Shown here: piece by piece, positions 1 through 13,815 of the stretch
Position numbering within the stretch: position 1 is the stretch's first letter
Layout: each line of letters opens with the position of its first letter
Assembly: GCA_029568995.1 (NCBI GenBank)
Contig: JAKPYU010000272.1
Coordinates: forward strand, 1-43,985
Direction of reading: 5' to 3'
Length of the DNA stretch: 43,985 bases
Source: Candidatus Omnitrophota bacterium
Lineage (GTDB): Bacteria; Hinthialibacterota; Hinthialibacteria; Hinthialibacterales; JAKPRU01
Notes under the pieces: model-generated
Database searches by the model: none
What the model was told of the DNA's origin: nothing
The model's input: only the letters and a program-made list of their open reading frames with translations
Translations under genes and position numbers: made by a program

Positions 1-1259
1 TCCTGCGCCAGAAGGACAATGTTCACCGCATGGCGGAATCCGTCCACATCAAACTGCCCATCCGAACGCTGAAACCCCAGCAAATTCAGCGAGGCCAGGT
101 TACAGGCGGAGTTGTCCAGGAACATGAATTCCGAACAGGGATTCGAGGCATTGATGGGGCCGGTTACCGGGCAGGTATGCCACTTGTTCACCGTCGAATG
201 GAACTGCATCCCCGGATCGCCGCACACATGCGTTCCCTCGGAGATCATGCGCATCAAGTCCTGCGCGCGAAAAGTATCCATGATCTCGCCGGTGACCACC
301 GCGCGGGTGTTCCATGGCAGGTCTTTCTCGACAGCGACCATGAACTCATCGGTCACCCGGACACTGTTATTGGAGTTCTGGAAAAACACCGAGGAATAGG
401 CTTCCCCATTGAAAGATCCATCGTATCCCTGTTCGATCAACGCCCACGCCTTCTTCTCTTCGGTGACCTTGCAGTTGATAAATTCGACAATATCCGGATG
501 GTCAATATTCAGAATAACCATCTTGGCGGCGCGACGGGTTTTGCCGCCGGACTTGATGACTCCCGCAAACGCGTCGTATCCCTTCATAAATGAGACCGGC
601 CCGGAGGCCGTTCCACCCCCGGTTACGTGCTCCTTGGAGGAACGCAAGGTTGAAAAGTTCGTCCCCGTGCCGGAACCGTATTTGAATAACATCCCCTCGA
701 TCTTCGCCAGGTTCAGAATCGATTCCATGGTGTCTTGAATGGAATTGATGAAACACGCCGAACACTGCGGATGCTCTTCCACCCCCAGGTTGAACCAGAC
801 CGGGCTGTTGAACGAGGCTTTCTGAGTCAGCAGGAGAGCGGTCAGTTCATCCGCAAAGGCTTGCCCATCCTCTTCCGTGGCAAAATAGCCCTGTTTCGTG
901 CCCCACTCGTGCAGAGTCCGCACGACTCGGCCGATCAGCTCCCGGATACTCTTTTCCCTGCCTGGCGTGCCGACCTTGCCGCGAAAGTACTTCGAGACCA
1001 CCACATTCGTGGCCATCTGCGACCAGAAAGAGGGGACCTCGACATTCTCCTGTTCGAATACCACCTCGCCTTTTTCATTCGTAATGGTGGCTTTGCGGGT
1101 TTCCCACTTGACTTGATCGAAAGGATTCCGCCCGGGCGAAGTCCATCGCCTCGGAACCTGCAATCCGCTTTCCACGGGGACAATCCCCACGGCGGACGCG
1201 CCTTCGTGCCCATTGGTCTGAACCAAATCGCCGTTTTCGGTAATTGCCAATTCACCCAC
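1..1259 (-). CDS. nrdJ: Class II (adenosylcobalamin-dependent) ribonucleotide reductase, 5' part
   Basis: Reduces ribonucleotides to deoxyribonucleotides through a B12-generated thiyl radical, so it works with or without oxygen; cytoplasmic. The 419 visible residues carry family blocks SFNSPVWFN (about 149-157), QCSACFIN (165-172), a glycine-rich GSGTGTN, the KSGGKTRRAAKMV stretch and the active-site triad NPCSE (Asn373, Cys375, Glu377). The gene runs off the left edge, so the C-terminal half is missing only because of the window. The start is a GTG at 1259: the frame closes a few codons upstream, no in-frame ATG fits, and GGAGAGAGA lies just 5' of it. It is transcribed from a promoter near 1400 flanked by NrdR boxes. 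Family assignment is from motif recognition and is secure. Confidence 0.93.
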   Translation of the reverse strand, partial: MGELAITENGDLVQTNGHEGASAVGIVPVESGLQVPRRWTSPGRNPFDQVKWETRKATITNEKGEVVFEQENVEVPSFWSQMATNVVVSKYFRGKVGTPGREKSIRELIGRVVRTLHEWGTKQGYFATEEDGQAFADELTALLLTQKASFNSPVWFNLGVEEHPQCSACFINSIQDTMESILNLAKIEGMLFKYGSGTGTNFSTLRSSKEHVTGGGTASGPVSFMKGYDAFAGVIKSGGKTRRAAKMVILNIDHPDIVEFINCKVTEEKKAWALIEQGYDGSFNGEAYSSVFFQNSNNSVRVTDEFMVAVEKDLPWNTRAVVTGEIMDTFRAQDLMRMISEGTHVCGDPGMQFHSTVNKWHTCPVTGPINASNPCSEFMFLDNSACNLASLNLLGFQRSDGQFDVDGFRHAVNIVLLAQ

Positions 1260-1611: not shown

Positions 1612-2091
1612 CTACTTGTCCAGCGAGGTGTGGCGCAGATCGACATGAAGTCCCCAAGGGTACGGTTTCACGAAATCGAAGAGGGAACGGGCGATGGTTT
1701 CAAAGGTTCCTGGAGGGATATTTGCTGGTTGGCGAATGTCGGCGGCACAACATGTAAGAGTTGATTTTACAGGTAGATACATCAGGTCTCCGAGTCGCTC
1801 CAGCAGTACGGGGTATTTCTGAAAATCCTCTTCGTCCGGGCCGCAGAGGAGATGACGGCTCATAAGGCAGATCTCCTCCGCCCACCTTTCACCATATTGC
1901 TGCCGGTAGATGCGCCGATGTTCCGACCAGGTCCGACAGGAAGAGGTGACCTGCAACGGAGTGCCCAGCCGGATGCGCAGTTGCTCCAGTCGCAGCGGCA
2001 ACAAGGGGTGAATGCACACCAGCCCGGTGGCTTTATCCTCAAATTCCGAGAGAAGGAAATGCTCTGTCAGGCGGATCTCGTTGCGCCTCAT
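1612..2091 (-). CDS. Peptidase M15-like phage endolysin candidate
   Basis: A 159-residue protein at the 3' end of the phage-like operon; its ATG overlaps the stop of the preceding gene (ATGA). It opens with LTEHFLLSEFE, the entry signature of phage M15-type D-Ala-D-Ala or endolysin peptidases. It then has an 'LRIRLGTPLQVTSSCRTW' stretch like the substrate-binding segment, SRH, CAADI and GLHVDLR. The His, Asp and His of the last three are plausible zinc ligands. Such enzymes cut peptidoglycan cross-links at host lysis. The spacing of the first ligand is unusual because the loop between SRH and CAADI is long, so catalytic competence is not certain. Confidence 0.6.
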   Translation of the reverse strand: MRRNEIRLTEHFLLSEFEDKATGLVCIHPLLPLRLEQLRIRLGTPLQVTSSCRTWSEHRRIYRQQYGERWAEEICLMSRHLLCGPDEEDFQKYPVLLERLGDLMYLPVKSTLTCCAADIRQPANIPPGTFETIARSLFDFVKPYPWGLHVDLRHTSLDK

Positions 2092-2399
2092 TCTTTCACC
2101 CGGACTGCAATCGGTTCGAGATTCTCCACCTGAAGGCTTTCACTCTGCAGCCGCAGGCGGCCTTTCAGGATTCCCACTTGGGCTGTATCGGCGGCGTCCA
2201 CTGTATAAGCGGCCTTTCCTGCCGGTGAGTCGATGTTCTCACACAGGCTCCGATCTGCGTTCAGAATCTCCCCGTCGGATTCCAGAAGAAAATGGACCTC
2301 GCGGTCTGTGAGATCGATGGGATTGCCTTCATGGTCCTGGCAGGTGAATCGCAACTGGATCCCGTGATCGTTTCGGGTCAACAGAATGGTCGTGGTCAT
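2088..2399 (-). CDS. BppU-like baseplate N-terminal / Ig-like phage protein
   Basis: A 103-residue protein starting MTTTILLTRNDHGIQLRF. The layout 'I.LTRND.G..L.F...D..GNPIDLTDREVHFLLES...G' followed by 'GKAAYTVDAADTAQVGILKGRLRLQ' resembles the small Ig-like domain at the N-terminus of phage baseplate upper proteins (BppU/DUF2479 type). The domain probably decorates or anchors a virion or fibre. The start at 2399 has GGAGAG upstream; an in-frame extension is open but lacks a ribosome site. It overlaps the endolysin gene by 4 bp. Confidence 0.5.
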   Translation of the reverse strand: MTTTILLTRNDHGIQLRFTCQDHEGNPIDLTDREVHFLLESDGEILNADRSLCENIDSPAGKAAYTVDAADTAQVGILKGRLRLQSESLQVENLEPIAVRVKE

Positions 2400-2415
2400 G
2401 TTTCGAACTCTCCAA

Positions 2416-2577
2416 TCACGCAAGGAAATAGACGAAATGCACACTGTTCTCGGGGAACCGGACAGTCACCTCGACCGCGGGTATCGCTCCATCGGAGGTG
2501 AGAGGTGCAGACAGAGACATCCGTCCGGTCTCCTCCTCTTCGCAGGTCAGTGCGGGATCGCCTTTCGGATCAACCAT
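2416..2577 (-). CDS. Small phage-cassette protein, 53 aa, unknown
   Basis: An acidic 53-residue protein starting MVDPKGDPALTCEEEE and ending in an aromatic/hydrophobic HFVYFLA. I recognise no family. Support comes from a good ribosome site (GAGGAGAC, 5 nt before the ATG), its fit between neighbours in the same direction, and a 16-bp gap to the next gene. It may be a structural accessory protein. Confidence 0.55.
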   Translation of the reverse strand: MVDPKGDPALTCEEEETGRMSLSAPLTSDGAIPAVEVTVRFPENSVHFVYFLA

Positions 2578-2621
2578 CTTTGTCTCCTCAGAGAATATTC
2601 GTGTTTCAACAAGACCGTTGG

Positions 2622-2867
2622 TTAGAAGGGCCACCAGGATTTCCCGAACAGGCCGATAAATGCCCCGGCGGCGGCTCCGAGAAGCGAGGCTGTGATTTTG
2701 ATCGCCGCAATATCGCTTCGGTTCTTCAACACCATGGATTCGGTCCGCGCGAAATCGCGCTGGATATCGCGCAACAACATCTGGATGCCTTCCACGCGCG
2801 CAGTCACATGCTCGATGGCCGTGCGCAATTCCACATATTCGGGGCTGTAGGTCGGCCTTCGGTTCAT
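2622..2867 (-). CDS. XhlA-like phage lysis-associated membrane protein
   Basis: An 81-residue protein. The N-terminal 55 residues form a heptad-rich helix (VELRTAIEHVTARVEGIQMLLRDI). One transmembrane segment follows (ITASLLGAAAGAFIGLFG), then a short C-terminal tail. This is the architecture of XhlA/haemolysin-type proteins that sit beside holin and endolysin genes in prophages. The ribosome site GGAGGGG lies 6 nt before the ATG, which directly follows the stop of the fibre gene. Role in lysis is inferred from architecture and position, not from a catalytic motif. Confidence 0.6.
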   Translation of the reverse strand: MNRRPTYSPEYVELRTAIEHVTARVEGIQMLLRDIQRDFARTESMVLKNRSDIAAIKITASLLGAAAGAFIGLFGKSWWPF

Positions 2868-5192
2868 TCAATTCCCCTCCGATTCCTGCGTCGCACTCAC
2901 GGGAGTAGCCGTTGCGGTCGGCATCGGCGTGAATGCCGGGGCAGGCGTGGCGGTCGGAGTCGCAAGTGGAATCCCGGCGTCCACGAGACTCCGCTCCAGC
3001 GCGTCAATCCGATCCAGAAGCGCCATCTGCGCGGCGAATGCCAAGCCGAGTCCGTCGCTCAGGCTGATGGACAGACCATCCGGTGAGATGATGGACTGAG
3101 GGGCCTGCTCAACCAAATAACCTAGCCGTTTCCGGTGAGTATTCGGTTCCCCCTTATAGCGGAAGTAACAGAGAGGGGCGTTCTGCAATTCACCAAGGAT
3201 TGACGAGCGATCCTCCGGAGTCAGAGGCTCAATATCTTTCTTGAATTTCGCCGCGCTCCAGACATCCCAGCCATCGGCACGCGCGTTGCCGTGCCCTACC
3301 CCGATTTCCAGGACCCGTTGCGGCTCCTCCGTGCCGAGGCCGAGGTATCCTCCCTGGTAGTGCATTCCCGATTCGTCTTCTTCCCACGCCGACAGCAGAT
3401 ACCTTCGACCATTCCCATCGAGAAAATACAGCGCATTCGTGTCGAAATACCCGTCCGGATAGGGAGAGGTCGGCGGTGTAAAGGATTCTGTCCAGCGGGC
3501 AATGCCCTTGCTGAAACGGAATTCGTCGATCCATCCTTTCCAATAGTCCTGGTTGTACTCGCCCATCCGTCCCACGGCAAACCGGGAAGAAGAATTGTTC
3601 ACTGTCACGCCCGTGACAGTCGCGGTAGCCGAATTGACACCGTCCACAAACAGGCGCAAATAATCCCCGCTTCGAGAAAAAGCGACATGGTGCCAATTCG
3701 CGTCCGTGATCGCCGAAGTATGCTGCAAGGTGGTGTAAGAGCTTCCGTAATAGATTCCCCCCTCAACAAGATTGGTGTTTCGCATCAACAGGTAGACGCC
3801 GCCGTTCGCCGGTGCGTCAATGTACTGACCACAGAAATACCGATACGCGCCGGTTCCGCCATCGCGTTTGAACCAGAAATCGACGGTGAAGTCATCGCCT
3901 CCCACGTTCCAGTCCGCGTGATCCGGCGCGTCGATGTAATCGTTCGTCCCGTCGAACTTCGCGCTGCTCGTTCCGAACTTGAACGCGTCGGTATCGGTTT
4001 GAGCGCCATTGTATGCTGTCATGACGTGGGCGGAGATTGCGCTATCGCTGAACGAAGTCGCTCCGTCGGCACCGTCCGTATGCAGCAACAGAGATGTATA
4101 CGGTGCGATTTGTCCGACCAGCCTGGGCGCTGAGAAGATCTTCCCGTACTGGGAACTGCTTGTCGGATCGACGGTCTGGTTACTCAGGCTTAGCACGCCG
4201 TCCAGTGTCAGTTTCTCATTCGTTTCGGACGTGGCGATCCCGACATTCCCGCTGACATTGGAGAGTACATTGTTCCCGGAGACAGTCCATCCGAAATCCG
4301 AACTGCCGGTACTATTCAGATTCCCGATCCAGGCGCTGTCCGCCACCAGCGAGTAGCCCGCAGGAGGATCGTCCGTCGCCCCGAACACGGCACTTGGCGC
4401 TTTCATACGGCCTTCCACGGTCAGGTCGCCGGGATCGGCGTCCAGAACCATGGCATCCTCGTTCGTATCGGAATGGAACCTGATATAGCGATCCGAGAAG
4501 ACATCGAGATCGTTCGGCGAGATCGAGATTTTGTAGTTCGGATAATATAGGTAGATTTTGTCGCCGGGTTGTTGCTCAACAAATCGAAATGCGGTCACGG
4601 CATAAATGCTCGCCCCCGCGGTGACGTTGTTTTTCGCCACGATATCGCCTTCATCTCCCAGAATTTGAAACAGATCCTCTGCCGTGTCGGAGTGGAATTT
4701 GATATTTCGATCCGAGGTAACGTCCAGGTCGAACGGGGAGAGGCCGATTTTGTACGAATGCGACCAGAACGTGATTTTGTCGCCGAGAACATCATCAAAG
4801 CCGACTGTGGTTCCCAGCTGAATAAACGCAGTGGCCGGGGCTTCCGGAGAGACCCCATAGTTCGGGTCAATACGGATATCATAGCCGTTGGTCGTAATCC
4901 ACAATTTTTCCTGGACATCGTCGGCCAGGAATATCCTTGCCGCAGTGTCGCTTCCATTCACAACCAATGTGGCGGCCATCACCTGCGAGGTCGCCGCAAC
5001 GATGTCGCCGGTAGAGGCATCCCCGGTGTTTCGGAGATAGACATCCTCAATCTGGCTGGGGTGAATGAGTGTCCGCGCCATGATTACCGGGGCCACTCCA
5101 ATAATCGCGCAAATCGATAGCATAACCGCCAGGCACCGGCCCTTTCCACACAACGAAATGAAATGACTACTTGTCGGACTGTTTGTCATCAT
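2868..5192 (-). CDS. LamG + peptidase S74 (chaperone) fibre-like protein with signal peptide
   Basis: A 774-residue protein. Residues 1-39 look like a Sec signal peptide (hydrophobic 22-37, then MA). Two copies of a repeat follow at about 136-196 and 208-270, sharing GDKI, 'YKI..SP.DLDV.SDR.I.FHSDT'. A LamG/concanavalin-like domain spans about 365-575. A C-terminal S74 intramolecular chaperone spans about 612-735 (SAAKFKKDI, GYLVEQAPQSI, then a short coiled coil). A Pro/Thr-rich tail ends the protein. S74 domains trimerise fibres or spikes and then cleave themselves off. Its position in the cassette says receptor-binding fibre; the signal peptide says export. The 44-aa gene upstream overlaps its start. 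Confidence 0.8.
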   Translation of the reverse strand: MMTNSPTSSHFISLCGKGRCLAVMLSICAIIGVAPVIMARTLIHPSQIEDVYLRNTGDASTGDIVAATSQVMAATLVVNGSDTAARIFLADDVQEKLWITTNGYDIRIDPNYGVSPEAPATAFIQLGTTVGFDDVLGDKITFWSHSYKIGLSPFDLDVTSDRNIKFHSDTAEDLFQILGDEGDIVAKNNVTAGASIYAVTAFRFVEQQPGDKIYLYYPNYKISISPNDLDVFSDRYIRFHSDTNEDAMVLDADPGDLTVEGRMKAPSAVFGATDDPPAGYSLVADSAWIGNLNSTGSSDFGWTVSGNNVLSNVSGNVGIATSETNEKLTLDGVLSLSNQTVDPTSSSQYGKIFSAPRLVGQIAPYTSLLLHTDGADGATSFSDSAISAHVMTAYNGAQTDTDAFKFGTSSAKFDGTNDYIDAPDHADWNVGGDDFTVDFWFKRDGGTGAYRYFCGQYIDAPANGGVYLLMRNTNLVEGGIYYGSSYTTLQHTSAITDANWHHVAFSRSGDYLRLFVDGVNSATATVTGVTVNNSSSRFAVGRMGEYNQDYWKGWIDEFRFSKGIARWTESFTPPTSPYPDGYFDTNALYFLDGNGRRYLLSAWEEDESGMHYQGGYLGLGTEEPQRVLEIGVGHGNARADGWDVWSAAKFKKDIEPLTPEDRSSILGELQNAPLCYFRYKGEPNTHRKRLGYLVEQAPQSIISPDGLSISLSDGLGLAFAAQMALLDRIDALERSLVDAGIPLATPTATPAPAFTPMPTATATPVSATQESEGN

Positions 5193-5301
5193 TATTCTCT
5201 CGGTTTCCTTCCTCGCTGACCTTTTGACTCAATGCTTCTTCGATACAATTGAAAATGAGCGGGATGAGCAGTTTGAGAAATCGACGCAGAAACGGATTCA
5301 T
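5167..5301 (-). CDS. Small 44-aa membrane-active protein
   Basis: Starts MNPFLRRFLKLLIPLIFNC, a basic amphipathic segment of about 15 hydrophobic residues, followed by a very polar acidic tail ending DDKQSDK. GGAG lies 10 nt upstream of the ATG at 5301. Its end overlaps the start of the fibre gene by 26 bp, a sign of translational coupling. No family recognised; it could be a small holin-like or regulatory peptide. The evidence is the ribosome site and the context only. Confidence 0.5.
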   Translation of the reverse strand: MNPFLRRFLKLLIPLIFNCIEEALSQKVSEEGNRENNDDKQSDK

Positions 5302-5307
5302 GATTCT

Positions 5308-6099
5308 TTACTCCTGTTCGATGAGATATCGGTGTTGAATGATCGAACCTGTCGGTGGTGGACCGTGAAAGACGTAACCCCGACAGGCTTCTTCTTCTGT
5401 GTAATCTGTGGTAACCGCCTGCAAGACTCCGTTCAGGAACACCTCCAGAGTTCCCGATTGGAACTGCAGAGCTGTGCTGAAATGAACATTCTCCCCGTCA
5501 GGAATCTCCGGCGGTGTGCGGTCCACGGAATGACGGTGCGACGGCCCGGCGCTCACCAGAGCACGAAGGTCGGTGATGTATCCGTTCACACCATCGTCCG
5601 TTTCTTTGATGGTGGTGCATCCCGGACGAAGATAGATTTCCGCCAGGGCCACGGTGTCAGCCGGAATAGCGGGAGCGACCGGCGATGCGCCTTCCGTACC
5701 GGTTGCGATTGCGGCCTCACCGTCCTGGGAAACGTAGATGACGTCGAGGCGGGGAGCCGAGACGGGAGGCTCAATCATCCCTTCGTCGGGAAGCGTCTCA
5801 ATTGTAGTTCTGGCAACAACGTAAGGATGAACGATTCCCACCCCGGCCAGGATGCGCACGGTCATATTCGGAGTCGGCTGAGCGATAACCTTCAGCGATC
5901 CGCCGGAGCCGGTGTCCAACACGGCGTTCCGATCCAGGTTCACGAGACGGGAAATCGCACGATTTAAAGCCTCCAGGGAGGCGTCCACATTTCCGTTCCA
6001 GCGGTTCAGTTTCACCGAAGATACGGGAACTTCACCATAAATAAACAAAGATGAACTGTGCGATTCTCGCGTTGCGTCGTATTTCCCCAAGTTCGCCAT
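5308..6099 (-). CDS. Phage tail/receptor-binding structural protein
   Basis: A 263-residue protein. The N-terminal part (about 25-180) has the order common to phage baseplate and fibre-attachment proteins: an 'MTVRILAGVGIVHPYVV' block, 'APRLDVIYVSQDGEAAIATG', 'ASPVAPAIPADTVALAEIYL', then 'YITDLRA'. The C-terminal part (about 205-263) has 'GTLEVFLNGVLQAVTTDY', like a small beta domain repeated in other phage fibres. It probably connects or forms the adsorption apparatus. It lies 8 bp downstream of the protease-like gene, in the same operon. Confidence 0.6.
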   Translation of the reverse strand: MANLGKYDATRESHSSSLFIYGEVPVSSVKLNRWNGNVDASLEALNRAISRLVNLDRNAVLDTGSGGSLKVIAQPTPNMTVRILAGVGIVHPYVVARTTIETLPDEGMIEPPVSAPRLDVIYVSQDGEAAIATGTEGASPVAPAIPADTVALAEIYLRPGCTTIKETDDGVNGYITDLRALVSAGPSHRHSVDRTPPEIPDGENVHFSTALQFQSGTLEVFLNGVLQAVTTDYTEEEACRGYVFHGPPPTGSIIQHRYLIEQE

Positions 6100-6107
6100 G
6101 GGACTCT

Positions 6108-7049
6108 TTACTCCAGTCGTTGGATTGTCAATGCCGGGACTTCCGTCTCCTCGCTGGTCACGAGGAAATTCGGCAGACCGATCATGCGAGAGGCAACCGA
6201 GTCAGCATGACAGGTGACCAGGACTCCACCGAGCGATAAAAGATGGCGCGGCTCACAGCCGCATGAGACGGCCTGTTCCAGATCGTCTACCCACACATGG
6301 GTTGCAGATCCCTGCAGAGCCGCCAATTCTTCCGGGGTCGCCTCTCTCACATCGGAGAGGAGTTCCGCCCGGTAGAGAAGATCGAAGAGCGGATTGCCGT
6401 CTTGCCAGATGCAAAGAATCGCCTCATCATCCATATCGGCGGCGATGCTCCGCGCTCCGGCAACGACAGCTCCCTCATCCGCGCCCTTGTAGACCAACGA
6501 ACCTTCAAGGACGTCTACTACCTCATCAATAAGACAAATACATCGGCTATCCTCAACCTGCTCGCCCGGACGATGCCCGCACACCCCGTCTTCTTTTCCG
6601 CAGATCGAGCAGCGCCAATGCCGATATCGCCAGGCAATGGAAACCTCCCGGTAAATGCCGCCGTCGATGTTCAACAGGAGGTCGGTTGCCCCGCTGGTCT
6701 TCCGCAGCCAATAGAACCAAGCCTGCACCCAATGCGAAGGCTCGCCACCCGGCCCCGGTTTTTGCACAACGGCCGCTTTGAAGAACCGCGCCAGGGGGAG
6801 CGAACGCCTGTCGTGCCCCCCGATCACAGATTGCCCAACGACCAGGCGGCTAATCTGTTCCAGCGCCGGTGGGGTAAACTGTGACCAATCGGTCTCGCAA
6901 GGCTGATCCGAGCAGAGATACATGCTGCGGATGTAGACATCCTCCAATTGAAGAGGCATCTGCGCAAGCGCATTGATCGCAGCGAGATCCGCCCCCACAC
7001 CGCTGAAATGGCTATCCGTCAGTTCCGCCGCTCGATAAGAATGGTACAT
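6108..7049 (-). CDS. Prohead-protease-like phage protein with zinc-knuckle-like cluster
   Basis: A 313-residue protein starting MYHSYRAAELTD, chosen for the strong GGAGGT site 5 nt upstream. It has the block order of capsid maturation serine proteases: 'EDVYIRSMYLCSD', 'VVGQSVIGGHDRR' (candidate catalytic His), 'GIYREVSIAW' (candidate Ser) and 'VLEGSLVYKGADEGA'. Between the last two lies a Cys/His cluster, CSICG...CGH...C, probably metal-binding. These enzymes cleave scaffold and capsid precursors. Its place after the distal-tail gene rather than before the capsid gene is unusual. The C-terminal third (from about 235) is unrecognised. Confidence 0.55.
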   Translation of the reverse strand: MYHSYRAAELTDSHFSGVGADLAAINALAQMPLQLEDVYIRSMYLCSDQPCETDWSQFTPPALEQISRLVVGQSVIGGHDRRSLPLARFFKAAVVQKPGPGGEPSHWVQAWFYWLRKTSGATDLLLNIDGGIYREVSIAWRYRHWRCSICGKEDGVCGHRPGEQVEDSRCICLIDEVVDVLEGSLVYKGADEGAVVAGARSIAADMDDEAILCIWQDGNPLFDLLYRAELLSDVREATPEELAALQGSATHVWVDDLEQAVSCGCEPRHLLSLGGVLVTCHADSVASRMIGLPNFLVTSEETEVPALTIQRLE

Positions 7050-7062
7050 TGCAGACCTCCGT

Positions 7063-7743
7063 TCACACCCATAGATCCCGATATTGAATTTCCCATGCAC
7101 CGTCTACAGTAGCCTCACTGTGCAGAGTTACCGTGATCCATCCGCTCGAAAGCCGGGGAAATTCATCTACCAGATTTGTGACGTTCTCTTCGCTGTTCAA
7201 CAGGGCTATCCCCCGTTCGCAATCAATTGTGAGTATGTCCCCGGAGTTCAACGATCCGCTGTAGTTCAATACTTCCGCACCGATGTCGATACGGAATCCC
7301 GTCATTGCCTCTTCCGGCTGAACTTGAAACAACGGCGGCGTCAAGTGGTTGCCGCGATTGAGGATGTAAAGAGAATTACCCGGGGGCGATATATCCGCGT
7401 TAAGGCGGTGGAGCACATCGCTGCGCTCAAAACGGTCAATCGTCAGCACCTTCAGGGAGATTCGAGCCGCATCTTCTCGCGGGGACGGCACAACGGACAA
7501 CTCGCGTCGCCGACCCTCGAAGAATCGTCCGGGATGAAGGCAGAGGACCGCCTCTCCGCGATCCAGGCGCTCGACTTCCTGCTCGAATATCTCTATCTGT
7601 CTTCGCAATGCGATTGGATTGTCGGGATCGGACAGAATGGCTTCGATCACGATTTCGCGCCGCTCTTTCGAAAGCGCCTCCATGGTAGCCGATCGCCACC
7701 AGGAGGAATCTTCGGGAAACAGAAAGGTTCCAATCCGGATCAT
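7063..7743 (-). CDS. Distal tail protein (Dit)-like phage protein
   Basis: A 226-residue protein starting MIRIGTFLFPEDSS with AGGAAAG upstream. The C-terminal half resembles siphovirus distal tail proteins: 'MTGFRIDIGAEVLNYSGSLNSGDILTID' followed by 'LVDEFPRLSSGWITVTL' and the ending 'AWEIQYRDLWV'. Dit proteins form the hub between tail tube and adsorption apparatus. The N-terminal half is helical with charged heptads. It is followed 13 bp later by the protease-like gene. Confidence 0.55.
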   Translation of the reverse strand: MIRIGTFLFPEDSSWWRSATMEALSKERREIVIEAILSDPDNPIALRRQIEIFEQEVERLDRGEAVLCLHPGRFFEGRRRELSVVPSPREDAARISLKVLTIDRFERSDVLHRLNADISPPGNSLYILNRGNHLTPPLFQVQPEEAMTGFRIDIGAEVLNYSGSLNSGDILTIDCERGIALLNSEENVTNLVDEFPRLSSGWITVTLHSEATVDGAWEIQYRDLWV

Positions 7744-7781
7744 TCTTCTACTTTCCTGTTGCGCCGAACGGAGTGTCCGAA

Positions 7782-8171
7782 TCAGCGCGGGCATTCCATG
7801 GCCCAGGGCAGCGGGCTGGGATTCTTCAAGTAAGGCTGCAGGCGGCTCCAGGCTTGCAGTTCTTCCAGGGAGGCCAGGGCGAGATATCGCTCTGCCCGAT
7901 CTTTGCTTTCCAAGGAAATTTCAGGGGTTCTATAGGGTTGTTGATTGATCTCTCTGGAGACCGCCAGCAGCCTGATAATTTCCGCCATGGCGAGATCCGT
8001 TTCCGCTTCCACGACGGGCAAAGGCGGCTCGATCTCGGAGACTTCGATAATCGCGTCCGTCACTCGCAGGTGCGCCGTGTCAATGCATCGGCTAACCAGA
8101 TCGGACGGAACCTCGTCGAACAGACGCATCAGGCCCCGTTGGCGGACAAGGGTTTCATTGGTAAACGCCAT
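7782..8171 (-). CDS. Phage head-completion/connector-like protein, 129 aa
   Basis: Starts MAFTNETLVRQRGL with GAGAGAGAGG upstream. The protein is mostly helical, with an 'AETDLAMAEIIRLLAVSREI' segment and a C-terminal 'SLESKDRAERYLALASLEELQ'. Small helical proteins directly after the major capsid gene are usually head-tail connectors (DUF1320/gp6 class), and the residue pattern is compatible with that. I do not see a decisive motif. A long palindrome (8204-8239) lies in the gap between it and the capsid gene. Confidence 0.4.
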   Translation of the reverse strand: MAFTNETLVRQRGLMRLFDEVPSDLVSRCIDTAHLRVTDAIIEVSEIEPPLPVVEAETDLAMAEIIRLLAVSREINQQPYRTPEISLESKDRAERYLALASLEELQAWSRLQPYLKNPSPLPWAMECPR

Positions 8172-8203
8172 GGCAGATTCCTCTCTCTCCAAGTGTCTCA
8201 GGC

Positions 8204-8239
8204 AATGGTAGGGGCGACGCATGCGTCGCCCCTACCATT
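8204..8239. repeat. 36-bp perfect palindrome in the capsid operon
   Basis: Bases 8204-8221 and 8222-8239 are exact reverse complements with no loop; the centre is GACGCATGCGTC and the ends are AATGGTAGGGGCG. It belongs to the dispersed GGGGCG...CGCCCC family also seen near 11430 and 40710. As RNA it would form a very stable hairpin between the capsid gene and its downstream neighbour. Confidence 0.9.
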
Positions 8240-8246
8240 AGAAAGA

Positions 8247-9311
8247 TTATGTGTGAACGGTGTCGAGGACCTTGCAGGCCGACCGAATCAGCTTTGCAAA
8301 ACCGGCCACTTCCGAGATAGCCGTACCTTCGATCTGCTGACGAATCAGCCGTTCGCTTTCGGTCATCACCTCGGTTTCGTATACCTCTTCCAGCGCAAAC
8401 CGGCGGTCCAGACCGACGATCAGGTCATCGGCTACCGAATCATCTACCAGGATCTCGGCCCCGAACAACTTGATCATTTCACCGGACTTCTGGAATTTCT
8501 CGGCGACAAGAGGTTCTTTGAATTCATCCAGGCCCAGGATGGTTTTCGCCATCGCCTGGCTGATTACGAGGACGTTCATCTCGTACGGGTCAAGGGAGAG
8601 TTTGAACTCCACCAAGTCCTCATACGTGAGCGTGCCGCTGGCGGCGGTTTCCATGACGGAAGCCGCGTTGTCGTTCCCGTCGCCGTTGATGAGGACTCCG
8701 ATGGCATCGGCGAACTTGTCACGCTGAATCTGGACTCCAACCGCGCGGAGGAAGTACGCGATCACATTCGCGTGTTTCCGGCGGATGGCCTCGTACGTGG
8801 CCTCCAGGTAGCGGCCGTACTTGGAGAGTTGGATGGAATGTTCCGCCGTTTCCAGTTCGATCTTCGGAAGGGCCGCACCTTCGGCGACTTTCGCAAGACG
8901 TTTGTCGCTGTCGGAGAGCACCGAATCGTCCATGTAAATCGCCTTGTAGGTGTTGTCGTCTACGCGGGTACGATTTGCGACGATCTTGCCCAGCTTGGTA
9001 AAATCGTCCTTGCCGATCCGCACGGAGCGGGCGACAAATTCAGGGAACAGGACGGCGCTTTCCTGGGTGGCAAAGAATCGGTCGATGATACTGGATTCGG
9101 GACCGCTGACCTTGATGCCCGCCAGGGCCAGCTGCCGCTCGAACGCATCCAGGGCCGATTCCGCACCGGAGGGATCGAGTTCCTCCAGGTAACTTGAGAG
9201 AGGAACGCCGCGCTGCCGGGCTTCGCTATACAATCCGGGATGCAGTGGAATTCCGGCGGCGCGCTGCAATTCCGAGGGTAATCCCGTTCGTTGTTCTTCA
9301 GGAATCAACAT
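8247..9311 (-). CDS. Phage major capsid protein (HK97-type family)
   Basis: A 354-residue protein starting MLIPEEQRTG with AGGAGA 7 nt upstream. The N-terminal helix region 'YSEARQRGVPLSSYLEELDPS...LDAFERQLALAGIKV' and 'ATQESAVLFPEFVARSVRIG' are hallmarks of a widespread prophage major capsid family. Further matches are 'VAEGAALPKIELETAEHSIQLSKYGRYLEATYEAIRR', 'AIGVLINGDGN' and 'LTYEDLVEF'. It forms the icosahedral shell. It appears full length and undamaged, and lies between a decoration-like protein and a connector-like protein. Confidence 0.85.
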   Translation of the reverse strand: MLIPEEQRTGLPSELQRAAGIPLHPGLYSEARQRGVPLSSYLEELDPSGAESALDAFERQLALAGIKVSGPESSIIDRFFATQESAVLFPEFVARSVRIGKDDFTKLGKIVANRTRVDDNTYKAIYMDDSVLSDSDKRLAKVAEGAALPKIELETAEHSIQLSKYGRYLEATYEAIRRKHANVIAYFLRAVGVQIQRDKFADAIGVLINGDGNDNAASVMETAASGTLTYEDLVEFKLSLDPYEMNVLVISQAMAKTILGLDEFKEPLVAEKFQKSGEMIKLFGAEILVDDSVADDLIVGLDRRFALEEVYETEVMTESERLIRQQIEGTAISEVAGFAKLIRSACKVLDTVHT

Positions 9312-9354
9312 AGTCAATTCTCCTTGAATGAATGGCTGATTGAGTTGAATGCGA

Positions 9355-9768
9355 TCAACCCAGAAGGATATCGCAGGTGTGATTGGTGGAATCCACCGCG
9401 ATGACCGTACCGCGTGCCGGATTTCCTCCGGCGGGGACATCAGAACCTTCGGCAATAGCGGGAGCCTGGTAGACTTTCCCCGCACCGTCCACGACTACAC
9501 CGTTCCCGACGACGGGTTCGGTCTCGCCGGTATTGACAGCAAACCGGGCAACGCCGGCAATCTGTACTGTCGCAAGACCGTCGCCGACATGTTCCAGCCT
9601 TCCGAGCAGCACCCCGCCGTCCGAGCCGTGATCGACCTCGTTGCTCGCGGACAGGGATACCGCGTCGCACAAGTTGTCTGTCGTGAGGTCATACGCCCCA
9701 GCGGTGGTGTCGATCTGGAACGTGGCGTACAAGGCCCCGACACCGTTGTTATCTACGGACCGTGCCAT
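9355..9768 (-). CDS. Capsid decoration-like protein (DUF2190-type)
   Basis: A 137-residue beta-rich protein just upstream of the capsid gene. The segment 'LEHVGDGLATVQIAGVARFAVNTG...VVGNGVVVDGAGKVYQA' resembles phage capsid-cement proteins, whose 'G.....V.V.G...V' strands sit on the outside of the head. The ATG at 9768 has AGGAG upstream and lies inside the end of the preceding gene (20-bp overlap). The family call is moderate; position and fold pattern both support it. Confidence 0.5.
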   Translation of the reverse strand: MARSVDNNGVGALYATFQIDTTAGAYDLTTDNLCDAVSLSASNEVDHGSDGGVLLGRLEHVGDGLATVQIAGVARFAVNTGETEPVVGNGVVVDGAGKVYQAPAIAEGSDVPAGGNPARGTVIAVDSTNHTCDILLG

Positions 9769-10273
9769 GTGTGTTCTCCTTGTCAGTGAATGGAATGTGG
9801 GAATGAGGCGATTCGCCTCGAAGACGATATTCGTTCAGGAAATCCGTGGACCCATCAACCGCCGCCTGTCGATCGGTAGTCAACGAATGTGGACGTGTGG
9901 GAAACAGAAGCCGGAACTCCTCGGAGATCCGTTCATGCAAACAAGTCAACTCATGAACCGGCAGGTCCAGCCTGGCGAGATGCTTCTGCAGATCCGACAG
10001 TCGCTCTTCATTGCCCGTGGTGAGAACAATCGTACGCATCCGCGTTTCGGTCTCCCTGCGGAGCCGCTGAAGAGACTGCTCTCCCAATTCGAGCAAATCG
10101 TGTCGTTGTTCCTGACCGGCTTCGAGGGCGTTCCGCTCCTTCTCCAACGCGCTGCATTGCTGCCGGAGCGTCCAGAGATCCCGGGATTGTTCGGCGAAGG
10201 CATAAGCCAGACGCCTGACTTGCAGCATTCCCATTCGCAGTGACTCGTTTCGGTTGGTGGCAGGCTGTTCCAT
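9749..10273 (-). CDS. Coiled-coil phage-cassette protein, 174 aa
   Basis: First gene of the phage-like operon. Residues about 20-125 form long charged helices (LWTLRQQCSALEKERNALEAGQEQRHDLLEL), a coiled coil. The C-terminal 45 residues are polar and probably unstructured. Its place directly before decoration and capsid genes would fit a scaffolding or capsid-assembly protein, but no sequence motif confirms this. GGAAAG precedes the ATG. No clear sigma70 promoter was found in the 158-bp gap upstream, which it shares with the divergent glycosyltransferase gene. Confidence 0.55.
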   Translation of the reverse strand: MEQPATNRNESLRMGMLQVRRLAYAFAEQSRDLWTLRQQCSALEKERNALEAGQEQRHDLLELGEQSLQRLRRETETRMRTIVLTTGNEERLSDLQKHLARLDLPVHELTCLHERISEEFRLLFPTRPHSLTTDRQAAVDGSTDFLNEYRLRGESPHSHIPFTDKENTHGTVRR

Positions 10274-10373
10274 CGTCTTTCCTTTTTTTTTCAGTTGCCG
10301 TTCTATTTATTGCTGAAATGGCGCAGATTTCCCGGTTTTCCGGGGAGGGACACGAAAAACGGACCGGCTGTTA

Positions 10374-10402
10374 TTGGCATTCGGAAATAGACTTGCTATG
10401 CT
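10374..10402 (+). promoter_or_regulatory. Promoter of the GT2 glycosyltransferase gene
   Basis: TTGGCA (10374-10379), 17 bp, TATGCT (10397-10402), then GGAGG at 10420-10424 and the ATG at 10432. A CCCGG/CCGGG hairpin lies upstream near 10331-10344. Confidence 0.65.
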
Positions 10403-10431
10403 CGAATGACTACAGAATCGGAGGATTTCCG

Positions 10432-11394
10432 ATGGCAGAGCAATCCCACACTGTGGACATTTCCGTTGTGATTCCGGTATTCAACGAGGAATCGAATTTA
10501 GCGCCGCTTCATTCCGCACTCGTGGCCGCGCTTGAACCGCTCGACAAGGCTTATGAAGTGTTGTACATCGACGATGGAAGCACAGATGGCTCGCTCGACA
10601 CCCTCCGCGAATTAGCACGCCAGGACGCCCGGATTCGGGTGCTGGTCTTTCGGAAAAACTTCGGGCAGACGGCGGCCATGGCGGCGGGAATCGACTTTGC
10701 CAAAGGGGAGACGATTGTCACGCTGGACGCCGACCTGCAGAACGACCCCGTCGATATCCCCATCCTGATCGAGAAGATGTCCGAGGGATACGAAATTGTC
10801 TGCGGATGGCGGAAAGACCGCCGAGATTCCCTGCTTCGGCGGTTTTCCTCCTGGACAGCCAATCGGCTTGTGAGGGCTGTGTCCGGCTTGCCATTACACG
10901 ATATCGGCTGTACGCTGCGCGCCTGCAAGGCGGACCTGCTGAAAGAGGTCTCCCTGTATGGCGAAATGCATCGCTTCCTGCCGGTGTATGGCCGTCAACT
11001 CGGAGCACGGATCTGCGAAATACCGGTTCACCACCATCCACGTCAACACGGGAAAGCAAAGTACGGGCTGGAGCGCACACCGAAAGTGCTGCTCGATTTG
11101 CTGGTTCTGAAGTTAATGGGGAGCTATATCACGCGGCCCATTCATTTCTTCGGGGCCATCGGCGGGATGTTTATGGGGGGTGGATTCCTGTGCGGTGTGT
11201 GGGTATTGGCAGACAAATTCCTCAACGACCAGAAAGCGCACCGAAATCCGGTTTTGCTGCTGGCCGTATTTCTGGCGTTGCTCGGCGCACAAATGATTAT
11301 GCTGGGATTGCTCGCCGAATTGCTGACTCGCATCTACCACGAGTCTCGGCAGAAGCCGATTTACCGGATTCGGGAGACGCTGCATTTTCCGTGA
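10432..11394 (+). CDS. GT2 polyprenol-phosphate glycosyltransferase (DPM1/GtrB-like)
   Basis: A 320-residue membrane glycosyltransferase. Residues 1-230 form a GT-A domain: 'ISVVIPVFNEE', DDGSTD (47-52) and the metal-binding DADLQ (99-103), with 'FGQTAAMAAGIDFA' between them. Two transmembrane helices follow (about 240-262 and 276-300) and then a short C-terminal tail. Such enzymes load a sugar from a nucleotide donor onto undecaprenyl or polyprenyl phosphate at the inner face of the membrane, for later use in lipid A, O-antigen or protein glycosylation. The sugar cannot be read from the sequence. The start is fixed by GGAGG 7 nt upstream. Confidence 0.87.
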   Translation: MAEQSHTVDISVVIPVFNEESNLAPLHSALVAALEPLDKAYEVLYIDDGSTDGSLDTLRELARQDARIRVLVFRKNFGQTAAMAAGIDFAKGETIVTLDADLQNDPVDIPILIEKMSEGYEIVCGWRKDRRDSLLRRFSSWTANRLVRAVSGLPLHDIGCTLRACKADLLKEVSLYGEMHRFLPVYGRQLGARICEIPVHHHPRQHGKAKYGLERTPKVLLDLLVLKLMGSYITRPIHFFGAIGGMFMGGGFLCGVWVLADKFLNDQKAHRNPVLLLAVFLALLGAQMIMLGLLAELLTRIYHESRQKPIYRIRETLHFP

Positions 11395-11404
11395 AATCGA
11401 AGGC

Positions 11405-11451
11405 GGCAGCTGCGCTGCCGCACTCCAAGGGCGCACAGCCGTGCGCCCCTA
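11405..11451. repeat. Dispersed hairpin pair at the ftsK 3' end
   Basis: Two perfect hairpins in tandem: GGCAGC-TGC-GCTGCC (11405-11419) and GGGCGCAC-AGCC-GTGCGCCC (11429-11448). The second is followed by CTA (11449-11451), which is the ftsK stop codon on the minus strand. The element separates the convergent ends of the glycosyltransferase and ftsK genes and could act as a two-way mRNA end, although neither side has a T tract. Confidence 0.75.
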
Positions 11452-13815
11452 CGGTGTTTTATGCAGTATGATTTCGCGCGGTTTGCTGCCACGCGGTGGA
11501 CCGACTATCTGCTTGTCTTCCATCAGGTCCAGAAGGCGAGCGGCTCTGCCATAGCCGATTTTCATGCGACGCTGAAGCAGGGATGTGGATGCGGAGTCAT
11601 TCTCCAGCACAATCCGCACCGCTTCGTCGAACAGCTCGTCATAGTCGTCATCATCAGAGAATTCGCCATACTCGCTCTCTCTGTCATCTTCAATAGGAAC
11701 AAACTCGTCCTGGATGTACTGCACCTCTTGCTGATCTTTCACAAAATCTACGAGACAGGCCACCTCTTCACTGGAGACAAAACATCCCTGAAGGCGTTCC
11801 GGTCGGCCCGCCCCACCGGGGGTGAACAGCATATCCCCGCGCCCCATCAGCGACTCCGCGCCTTTCATATCGAGAATGGTTCGTGAATCCGTTGTGGAAG
11901 AAACCTGGAAGGCAATCCGCGCAGGAAAATTATTCTTAATGACGCCGGTTAATACATCTACGGAAGGACGTTGGGTTGCCAATACCAGGTGAATCCCTAC
12001 CGCACGGGCCATGGCAGCAAGCCGGGCAATCATGGATTCCACCTCCGCGCGGGCAATCATCATCAGGTCGGCTAATTCATCAATCAGGATGACGATATAC
12101 GGCAAGAACGACGGGAGAACGACGATTTCCTCGTTGGCGTAGTCCTGCTTGCGTCTTTCGTTGTATTCGCCGATATTGCGCACACCGGCATGTTTCAGGT
12201 AACGGTAGCGATTCTCCATTTCCTCTACCGCCCAGCGCAGTGCGGCTCCCGCGCGTTTCGGGTCGGTTACCACGGGAGACAGCAGATGCGGAATGTCACG
12301 ATACAGGGCCAATTCGACCTGCTTGGGATCGATCAGCAGCAGTTTGACCTCATGCGGTGCGGCATTGTAAAGAATGGAGCTGATAATGGAATTGACACAG
12401 ACCGATTTCCCGGAACCGGTCGCACCGGCAACCAACAGGTGCGGGGCTTGGCGGAGATCGAAACTGAACGGCTCGCCGGTAATGGTTTTTCCCAGCGCGA
12501 TCTTGAGTTTACTCGGATGTCGCTGGTAGACGTCCGATCCCAACACATCGCGGAGAAACACATCGGAACGGTGCTTGTTCGGAACCTCCACACCCACGGT
12601 TCCCTTGCCGGGAATCGGGGCCACAATCCGCACGGTGCAGGCCTTGAGCGCACGGGTGATATCGTTCGCCAGGTTCTCGATCCGGCTGATCTTGATGCCG
12701 GGGGCCGGTTCGAGTTCATAGCAGGTAATGGTCGGACCGTAGTTCACTTCCACCACACGGGCAGAGATTCCGAAGTCGTTCAGAGTACTTTCCAAAACTC
12801 GGGAATTGTGAAGGATCTCGTCCCGCGCCAAGTCCGGCTGCCCGCCTGCGGATTTTTTCAACAGCGCAAGAGGGGGAAGCTGATAGTTCTCATTATTGGG
12901 AGTCTCAACGTAATTGACGCTCCGGTCGCGTTCCTGGGAGTGGCGGGTGTCGTTGGTTACAATCAGTGGTTCCAGTTCCTCAACACCCCTGCGTTTCTTT
13001 TTCGACGCTCCATTTCTGGGTGCGGGGGACGGCTCCTCATTGAATTCCTGAAAATTGGATTCACTCTCAAGTTCCTCAATGGTTTTCAGGGGAGGAAGCA
13101 GGGTGGAATCAAAGGAATTCTTTGTCCGGATGGAAGGTTCCACGTCAAATGGTTCCAGGGGTTCCAGATCGTGCTCGATGTCTTCTTCATCCACCGGGCG
13201 ACGCCATCGGTCATAGAGATCCGCGCCTGTCCGATACGAGCCGCGTAACAGGTCGGAAATGAGAAACGGTGTGGCCAGAAGAAAGCCAACCACCCAGACC
13301 GCCACATTGACAATCATCCCTCCTACTTCCCCAAGGGCAAGAACCCGGTGAGCCAGGAAAAAACCGAGTGCCCCACCGCTATGCCAAGCCGATTCCACCG
13401 AATCGGCGCAGTCACTCAGAAGACGGAATGCCGCCAGGAAGGAACAACTGGACGCCAGCAAAAGCACAATTCCGGCGTACTCCGCCCAGCCGATCTGCCA
13501 ACGCCGAATCCCGCGAAATCGGCACACCGCGATATACCCGATGGCAATCGGAAGCGCCATTCCACACCAACCGAATAAGGCAAAACAGGCATAGGCCAGA
13601 TAAGCACCCGGTTTGCCGATCCAGTTCCGAATCGCCGCGCCGCTATCCTGCGATCCGGCGGCACCGGCGACATCGGCGGGATCGGCGGTCAACAGGGCAA
13701 GCGCTAAGATAATCGCCGTGGCAAATAGAATCAGAGAGGAAATCTCCTTGCGGCGCGGTTCCTCGATCTCGTTCCACGCCTCTGACAGAACCTCGTGCGG
13801 GCGGATGCTCGGCAT
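11449..13815 (-). CDS. ftsK: DNA translocase FtsK/SpoIIIE
   Basis: A 788-residue septal DNA pump that clears and resolves chromosomes at division. Residues 25-190 hold about four or five transmembrane helices. A charged linker runs over about 200-320, short compared with the Escherichia coli protein. The motor follows: alpha/beta domains from about 325, Walker A GATGSGKS (464-471), Walker B LLLIDPK (492-498), DELADLMM and 'VLATQRPSVDVLTGVIKNN'. The C-terminal gamma winged helix is present ('SLLQRRMKIGYGRAARLLDLME'), so DNA-polarity reading is expected. The start at 13815 has AGGAG 7 nt upstream; an in-frame extension to 13875 lacks this. The stop codon lies in a dispersed hairpin repeat. Confidence 0.93.
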   Translation of the reverse strand: MPSIRPHEVLSEAWNEIEEPRRKEISSLILFATAIILALALLTADPADVAGAAGSQDSGAAIRNWIGKPGAYLAYACFALFGWCGMALPIAIGYIAVCRFRGIRRWQIGWAEYAGIVLLLASSCSFLAAFRLLSDCADSVESAWHSGGALGFFLAHRVLALGEVGGMIVNVAVWVVGFLLATPFLISDLLRGSYRTGADLYDRWRRPVDEEDIEHDLEPLEPFDVEPSIRTKNSFDSTLLPPLKTIEELESESNFQEFNEEPSPAPRNGASKKKRRGVEELEPLIVTNDTRHSQERDRSVNYVETPNNENYQLPPLALLKKSAGGQPDLARDEILHNSRVLESTLNDFGISARVVEVNYGPTITCYELEPAPGIKISRIENLANDITRALKACTVRIVAPIPGKGTVGVEVPNKHRSDVFLRDVLGSDVYQRHPSKLKIALGKTITGEPFSFDLRQAPHLLVAGATGSGKSVCVNSIISSILYNAAPHEVKLLLIDPKQVELALYRDIPHLLSPVVTDPKRAGAALRWAVEEMENRYRYLKHAGVRNIGEYNERRKQDYANEEIVVLPSFLPYIVILIDELADLMMIARAEVESMIARLAAMARAVGIHLVLATQRPSVDVLTGVIKNNFPARIAFQVSSTTDSRTILDMKGAESLMGRGDMLFTPGGAGRPERLQGCFVSSEEVACLVDFVKDQQEVQYIQDEFVPIEDDRESEYGEFSDDDDYDELFDEAVRIVLENDSASTSLLQRRMKIGYGRAARLLDLMEDKQIVGPPRGSKPREIILHKTP

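Follow-up and report, generated by a model that had tools for sequence, protein, structure and literature searches.

The window analysed here, a 43,985-nucleotide stretch, is an entire contig (C755) of a metagenome-assembled genome (MAG) from the class Hinthialibacteria, which totals 6.33 Mb in 807 contigs with 7% contamination. Its minus strand carries, from 10273 to 1612, a cassette of 13 co-directional phage-derived genes, all with intact open reading frames (ORFs) and with host genes on either side. We consider it probable that this cassette is the locus for the head, hub and fibres of an ancient element, domesticated by its host, that resembles a gene transfer agent (GTA) and has its genes divided among three or more chromosomal loci. 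As the initial annotation had stated, the genes are undamaged and include an HK97-type capsid gene (PHROG 3922, Pfam Phage_capsid_4), decoration-, Dit- and fibre-like proteins and a lysis pair (holin- and M15-like), and the cassette is bounded by nrdJ and by a glycosyltransferase and ftsK, which are host flanks. The window's own genome (G000) was compared with a second member of its genus (G001) and within a set of 14 class genomes, whose families include f1, f2, f4 and f5. From the upstream to the downstream flank the features are as follows (dN/dS, ratio of non-synonymous to synonymous substitution rates).

11449..13815, minus: ftsK, host gene; neighbourhood the same in G001
10318..11394, plus: glycosyltransferase, host gene, divergent upstream flank
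9749..10273, minus: g01, coiled-coil-rich protein of 174 amino acids, directly upstream of the decoration and capsid genes; dN/dS 0.27
9355..9768, minus: g02, decoration-like head protein; phrog_4588 virion structural protein, E=9.5e-5; dN/dS 0.105
8247..9311, minus: g03, HK97-like major capsid protein of 354 amino acids; phrog_3922 major head protein, E=4.1e-82; Pfam Phage_capsid_4; dN/dS 0.050
7782..8171, minus: g04, head-tail adaptor-like; class orthologues resemble Zixibacteriota proteins
7063..7743, minus: g05, Dit-like hub protein; SPP1_Dit, E=3.5e-9; profile against SPP1 Dit 2x8k, E=1.9e-8; Foldseek against 2x8k, E=5.9e-11
6108..7049, minus: g06, head maturation (prohead) protease, most likely; phrog_16951, E=6e-34, and predicted fold
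5308..6099, minus: g07, baseplate or fibre-attachment protein; DUF4815-like, E=8.8e-5, under the Pfam cut-off
5167..5301, minus: conserved small ORF of 44 amino acids with a hydrophobic stretch; a homologue is present in a further member of the genus (L095)
2868..5192, minus: g08, fibre/adhesin-like; LamG domain (Laminin_G_3, E=1e-19), S74-like C-terminal region, signal-peptide-like N-terminus
2622..2867, minus: g09, holin-like, 81 amino acids; one C-terminal hydrophobic stretch by hydropathy; dN/dS 0.025
2416..2577, minus: g10, small ORF of 53 amino acids, kept within the genus
2088..2399, minus: g11, Ig-like/baseplate-associated, 103 amino acids; phrog_1084, E=0.01; weak Invasin_D3 match; kept in f2
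1612..2091, minus: g12, M15-peptidase-like endolysin candidate; phrog_894 endolysin, E=2.1e-4
3..1259, minus: nrdJ, host gene, downstream flank; also flanks the cassette in G001

GC content and composition remain unchanged across the cassette borders. On an independent 68 kb contig, G001 has the identical order of ftsK, glycosyltransferase, g01–g12 and nrdJ with intact genes, so the cassette is not a chance assemblage. In family f2 the cassette order is the same but other host genes flank it, and those flanks are common to several f2 genera. None of the relatives examined has a full prophage at the f1-type or f2-type site. Family, profile and tRNA scans of the window recognised no terminase, portal, tape measure, integrase or tRNA, while promoter and terminator scans gave results near chance level.

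Portal and terminase genes lie at separate loci

The packaging and tail-tube genes that the initial annotation had reported missing are indeed missing from the locus, but a portal and a terminase are encoded elsewhere in the same genome. A portal profile detected exactly one portal in 12 of the 14 class genomes. The portal of the window's own genome (C124:1016-2323) is single and lies among host genes (E=2.6e-135; phrog_3753, E=7e-48); it likewise stands alone between host genes in f1 and f2. In G006 the portal lies about 13 kb from the cassette on the same contig, and in f4 and f5 it is found directly upstream of the capsid cassette. The portal profile had no relative among solved structures.

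The terminase (TerL) of the window's own genome is a standalone gene on contig C42 (E=1.4e-274; phrog_2, E=8e-35), and TerL adjoins ftsH in all three genus members. It carries Walker A (GRGAGKS), Walker B (VILDEA) and nuclease (GADLAL and HDD) motifs, and both Walker motifs and both nuclease motifs are kept in all six terminase copies examined. Its nuclease domain is matched by TerL proteins of known structure. In f4, one contiguous cassette, bordered at either end by host genes, runs from the portal to a phrog_38 terminase at its end. With the portal on C124, the terminase on C42 and the protease g06, the kit for building, maturing and filling a capsid is complete over three loci. Neither the window nor the surroundings of the portal and terminase genes showed a recognisable replication or integration function.

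When the terminase was first sought with a profile from Zixibacteriota, only weak matches were returned, which led to the lineage's own terminase. Portal and terminase matches in G009 were rejected as an ordinary lambda-type pair, and a terminase-search match in G011 was also rejected. A suspected winged helix at the N-terminus of the f1 terminase received weak Pfam support (HTH_11, E=0.068; MarR, E=0.023). In G007 and G008, single scattered genes of 137-178 amino acids encode the helical domain found at the N-terminus of the standalone terminase (L156:1306-1719, L160:1252-1719, L161:1480-1911, L155:1279-1728 and L158:1237-1773) and are possibly small-terminase-like or regulatory paralogues. 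G001 has two terminase copies, L149 (C16) and L153 (C74); because the region around the C74 copy appears identical to its counterpart in G002, this copy is probably cross-bin contamination.

Vertical inheritance and purifying selection

Thirteen of the 14 class genomes carry the capsid gene in single copy, the exception being one fragmented genome, compared with 4 of 131 other genomes sampled. Class capsids form one clade (support 99) among 89 capsids. Pairwise distances are closely correlated between rpoB and capsid (r=0.927), rpoB and portal (r=0.899) and capsid and portal (r=0.927; Mantel p=0.0001 each), f1 and f2 are the same clades in the rpoB, capsid and portal trees, and the distance groupings f1, f2 and f4 agree between the three genes. 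This concordance shows vertical inheritance in concert with the host, within a class where rpoB divergence reaches 39%.

The dN/dS comparison, which the initial annotation had proposed for the capsid, gave, for G000 against G001, 0.050 for the capsid and 0.051 for the portal, equal to the flanking host genes nrdJ (0.048) and ftsK (0.059), with similar dS; the capsid and portal values are those of a host gene set, not of a phage. Across all element genes measured, dN/dS ranged from 0.025 to 0.27, consistent with genes kept intact by purifying selection. The PF00562 match to RpoB is split in two in f4 (G010 L177, G012 L174 and G013 L175), suggestive of an insertion of about 200 residues particular to that lineage.

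Assignment of the cassette proteins

Aided by structure prediction, we assign g06 as most likely a head maturation protease. The core of its model, with block means mostly of 80-97 pLDDT over residues 21-180 and a low-confidence C-terminus, matched viral prohead serine proteases in a viral structure library (best E=1.2e-14), and His79 and Ser137 are invariant in the alignment, Zixibacteriota included; a fold search against the PDB gave nothing significant. The so far unnamed PHROG 16951 can thereby be named, by fold, as a prohead protease. The protease call of the initial annotation needs correction: the prohead protease is the gene at 6108-7049, and the S74-like domain of the fibre protein g08 is a weak match (Peptidase_S74, with a score of 16.5 bits where the cut-off is 22). 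Directly behind the protease, g07 follows in every capsid-bearing class genome.

By sequence, profile and predicted fold, g05 is a Dit protein. For g04, initially described as connector-like, that description depends on the resemblance of its class orthologues to Zixibacteriota proteins, one relative of these showing weak Mu Gp36 and head-tail adaptor matches; g04 itself has no direct family match. No family match above cut-off was obtained for g01, whose position is kept in those f1 and f2 genomes whose contigs extend to it (27-80% identity); it is a candidate scaffold or small terminase. The first zinc motif of g12 is non-canonical (CCAAD in place of the expected H..G.A.D, with WGLHVD retained), which makes endolysin activity doubtful.

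Sec-signal-like N-termini were observed on fibre genes of f1, f2, f4 and Zixibacteriota (window 2868-5192; L096-L101, L104, L036 and L144). The signal-peptide test was a crude home-made rule under which phage contigs also score 0-4 each, so these signals serve as no more than a suggestive lead. In the Zixibacteriota chromosome CP070839, the portal-terminase pair is followed by three related proteins that bear signals and have a ‘YYQGQLTD’-type start in common (L144:11124-15391).

PF10145, the common type of tape measure, is absent from 12 of the 14 class genomes and in the other two falls on non-cassette contigs (C59 and C303 of G000, C22 of G012), C59 being a phage contig. The contiguous f4 and Zixibacteriota cassettes also show no obvious tube or tape measure. 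Given the 12 genomes that lack a tape measure, the particle is probably short-tailed or tail-less. C59 (L182, G000:C59:1-13121) is an unrelated siphophage contig in the same bin, with portal, protease, HK97 capsid and tape measure genes. A PF05065 search of the genome missed the cassette capsid and found this siphophage.

A probable dispersed GTA-like element and its alternatives

Of the possibilities raised in the initial annotation, a GTA with genes scattered elsewhere is the one that the single-copy, separate portal and terminase, the vertical inheritance and the purifying selection support. In such an element, the cassette would make a prohead from the capsid and decoration proteins, the candidate scaffold (or small terminase) g01 and the protease g06, which would cleave and mature it. 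The C42 terminase would then fill the prohead with host chromosomal DNA through the C124 portal, and the adaptor, Dit hub and fibres would close a short-tailed or tail-less particle, with the fibres providing attachment. Release by lysis could be followed by uptake by relatives. Particle formation, DNA packaging, a short tail, release and transfer are what we infer.

Several observations weigh against this model. No portal was found in G002 (1270 contigs), and no terminase of either type in G004 and G011. The terminase evolves faster than the capsid (dN/dS 0.15-0.18) and its type differs, PHROG 2 in f1 and f2 versus PHROG 38 in f4, and because of this we infer, rather than observe, its partnership with the capsid. 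In f1 the M15 zinc motif is not complete, and f2 yielded no recognisable endolysin. Neither a tape measure nor a tube has been linked to the element, which leaves tube-less delivery unexplained, and the host is an uncultured MAG.

Some of these points would suit a domesticated capsid that packages no DNA and acts as a compartment, decoy or adhesion particle, with portal and terminase as unrelated leftovers. The unlinked portal and terminase of f1 and f2, the two genomes in which no terminase was found and the signal-like N-termini of the fibre proteins favour it, but the portal is constrained like the capsid (dN/dS 0.051) and tracks it (r=0.927), f4 has portal, capsid and terminase contiguous, and a prohead protease fits the maturation of DNA-filled heads; we give this explanation a small chance. 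The domesticated capsid particle of the initial annotation was right as to domestication but incomplete, as packaging genes exist. A phage satellite dependent on a helper for packaging or tail genes, also proposed initially, is very unlikely: although packaging genes are absent from the locus and the assembly contains the siphophage contig C59, the locus has no integrase or replication gene and has its own capsid, protease, hub and fibres, its positions are conserved and its genes inherited with the host, and the portal and terminase are chromosomal.

The division of genes among loci and the lack of a tube could also be read as decay of a prophage or a recent partial deletion, which is hard to reconcile with ORFs that are all intact, dN/dS values of 0.025-0.27, conservation across a class whose rpoB diverges by up to 39%, and relatives that lack a full prophage at the site, G001 having the same cassette and flanks; we regard it as highly improbable. 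We hold it just as improbable that the cassette belongs to a compact phage or plasmid-like virus that is still mobile in the lineage. IMG/VR contigs and records of gut phages do contain relatives of the capsid (29-43% identity), but the viral contigs of 34-68 kb reach at most about 34% capsid identity, no replication or integration genes were recognised, the tree is congruent with that of the host, and flanks are fixed, as are positions across the class. Misassembly or a binning artefact, which a MAG with this number of contigs and level of contamination might invite, has next to no chance of explaining the locus, since the same ftsK-glycosyltransferase-cassette-nrdJ order on the independent G001 contig, from another species, refutes it and composition is uniform. 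Neither of the findings named beforehand as fatal to the initial annotation, misassembled flanks or a full prophage at this site in close relatives, was encountered, and the search of related genomes for the nrdJ-cassette-ftsK order recovered it in G001 and, with other host flanks, the same cassette in f2.

For the GTA-like element we put forward a more specific version tentatively, and with more doubt than assurance: a tube-less GTA typical of an entire phylum-level lineage and older than its families, in which terminase and portal are now free-standing host genes and fibre proteins with Sec-type signals would be exported ahead of the particle and join it in the envelope or upon lysis. If the GTA model is true, capsid-mediated gene exchange would be a conserved trait of a whole little-known lineage and the known range of GTAs would widen, Zixibacteriota and Clostridia having relatives of the element. 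It would also provide a testable model of packaging by a dispersed, probably tube-less machine. GTA loci may be missed when packaging genes stand alone among host genes, as a scan confined to one locus then shows nothing but a ‘crippled prophage’.

Comparison with related loci and known systems

Zixibacteriota share the capsid, decoration, protease-like and portal families with the class, and on the complete chromosome CP070839 about 1.3 Mb separate the capsid locus from a portal-terminase locus. In contrast to the class element, the protease there precedes the capsid, a large uncharacterised protein follows it and the terminase is different; no Dit was recognised in the Zixibacteriota cassettes. 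A Zixibacteriota-like cassette (L022) binned in a ‘Thermoplasmata archaeon’ MAG is probably a misbinned contig. In Oscillospiraceae and other Clostridia, loci have terminase, portal, phrog_16951, decoration and capsid genes in a row, with capsids 35-44% identical. In the library searched, we found no publication joining ‘gene transfer agent’ and ‘Zixibacteria’ and none listed as linking Hinthialibacter with GTA content.

Encapsulins are HK97-fold shell proteins fixed in bacterial chromosomes. They consist of shell and cargo without portal, terminase, protease, hub or fibre genes, whereas the class element has all of these. It also differs from phage satellites, which have an integrase or replication of their own and are mobile, in that its flanks are fixed within families, and from prophages, which have a full lysogenic set with integrase and occur sporadically, in that 13 of 14 genomes carry the capsid.

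The genes of RcGTA are, like those of the class element, spread over multiple loci; its siphovirus-like tail has a tape measure, whereas none was found for the class element. The capsid profile matched no solved structure, though the searched library includes the RcGTA virion. As in other recognised GTAs and in those of the RcGTA type (Rhodogtaviriformidae; PMC9662315), the genes of the element derive from a caudovirus, are inherited vertically, evolve with the host and are held under purifying selection. Host-encoded structural genes of caudovirus origin, including capsid, portal and terminase, and a cluster with no recognisable autonomous replication or integration functions are features testable in sequences, and they fit the description of a GTA (PMC9662315).

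In its way of working the element would be closest to FpGTA of Faecalibacterium prausnitzii, in which two operons about 125 kb apart encode ~40 nm capsids with no visible tail that contain 8.4-8.9 kb of host DNA; it is without replication genes and podovirus-like in its authors' reading (PMC12946183, Nat Commun 2026). The two differ in phylum and in that portal and terminase are here single genes at two further loci; and whereas FpGTA packaging is experimental, the class element is filed as GTA-like from its genes. Compared by description, both combine a small capsid, portal, terminase, hub/fibre and lysis set in separate operons or loci (here on three contigs) with no recognised long tail or tape measure.

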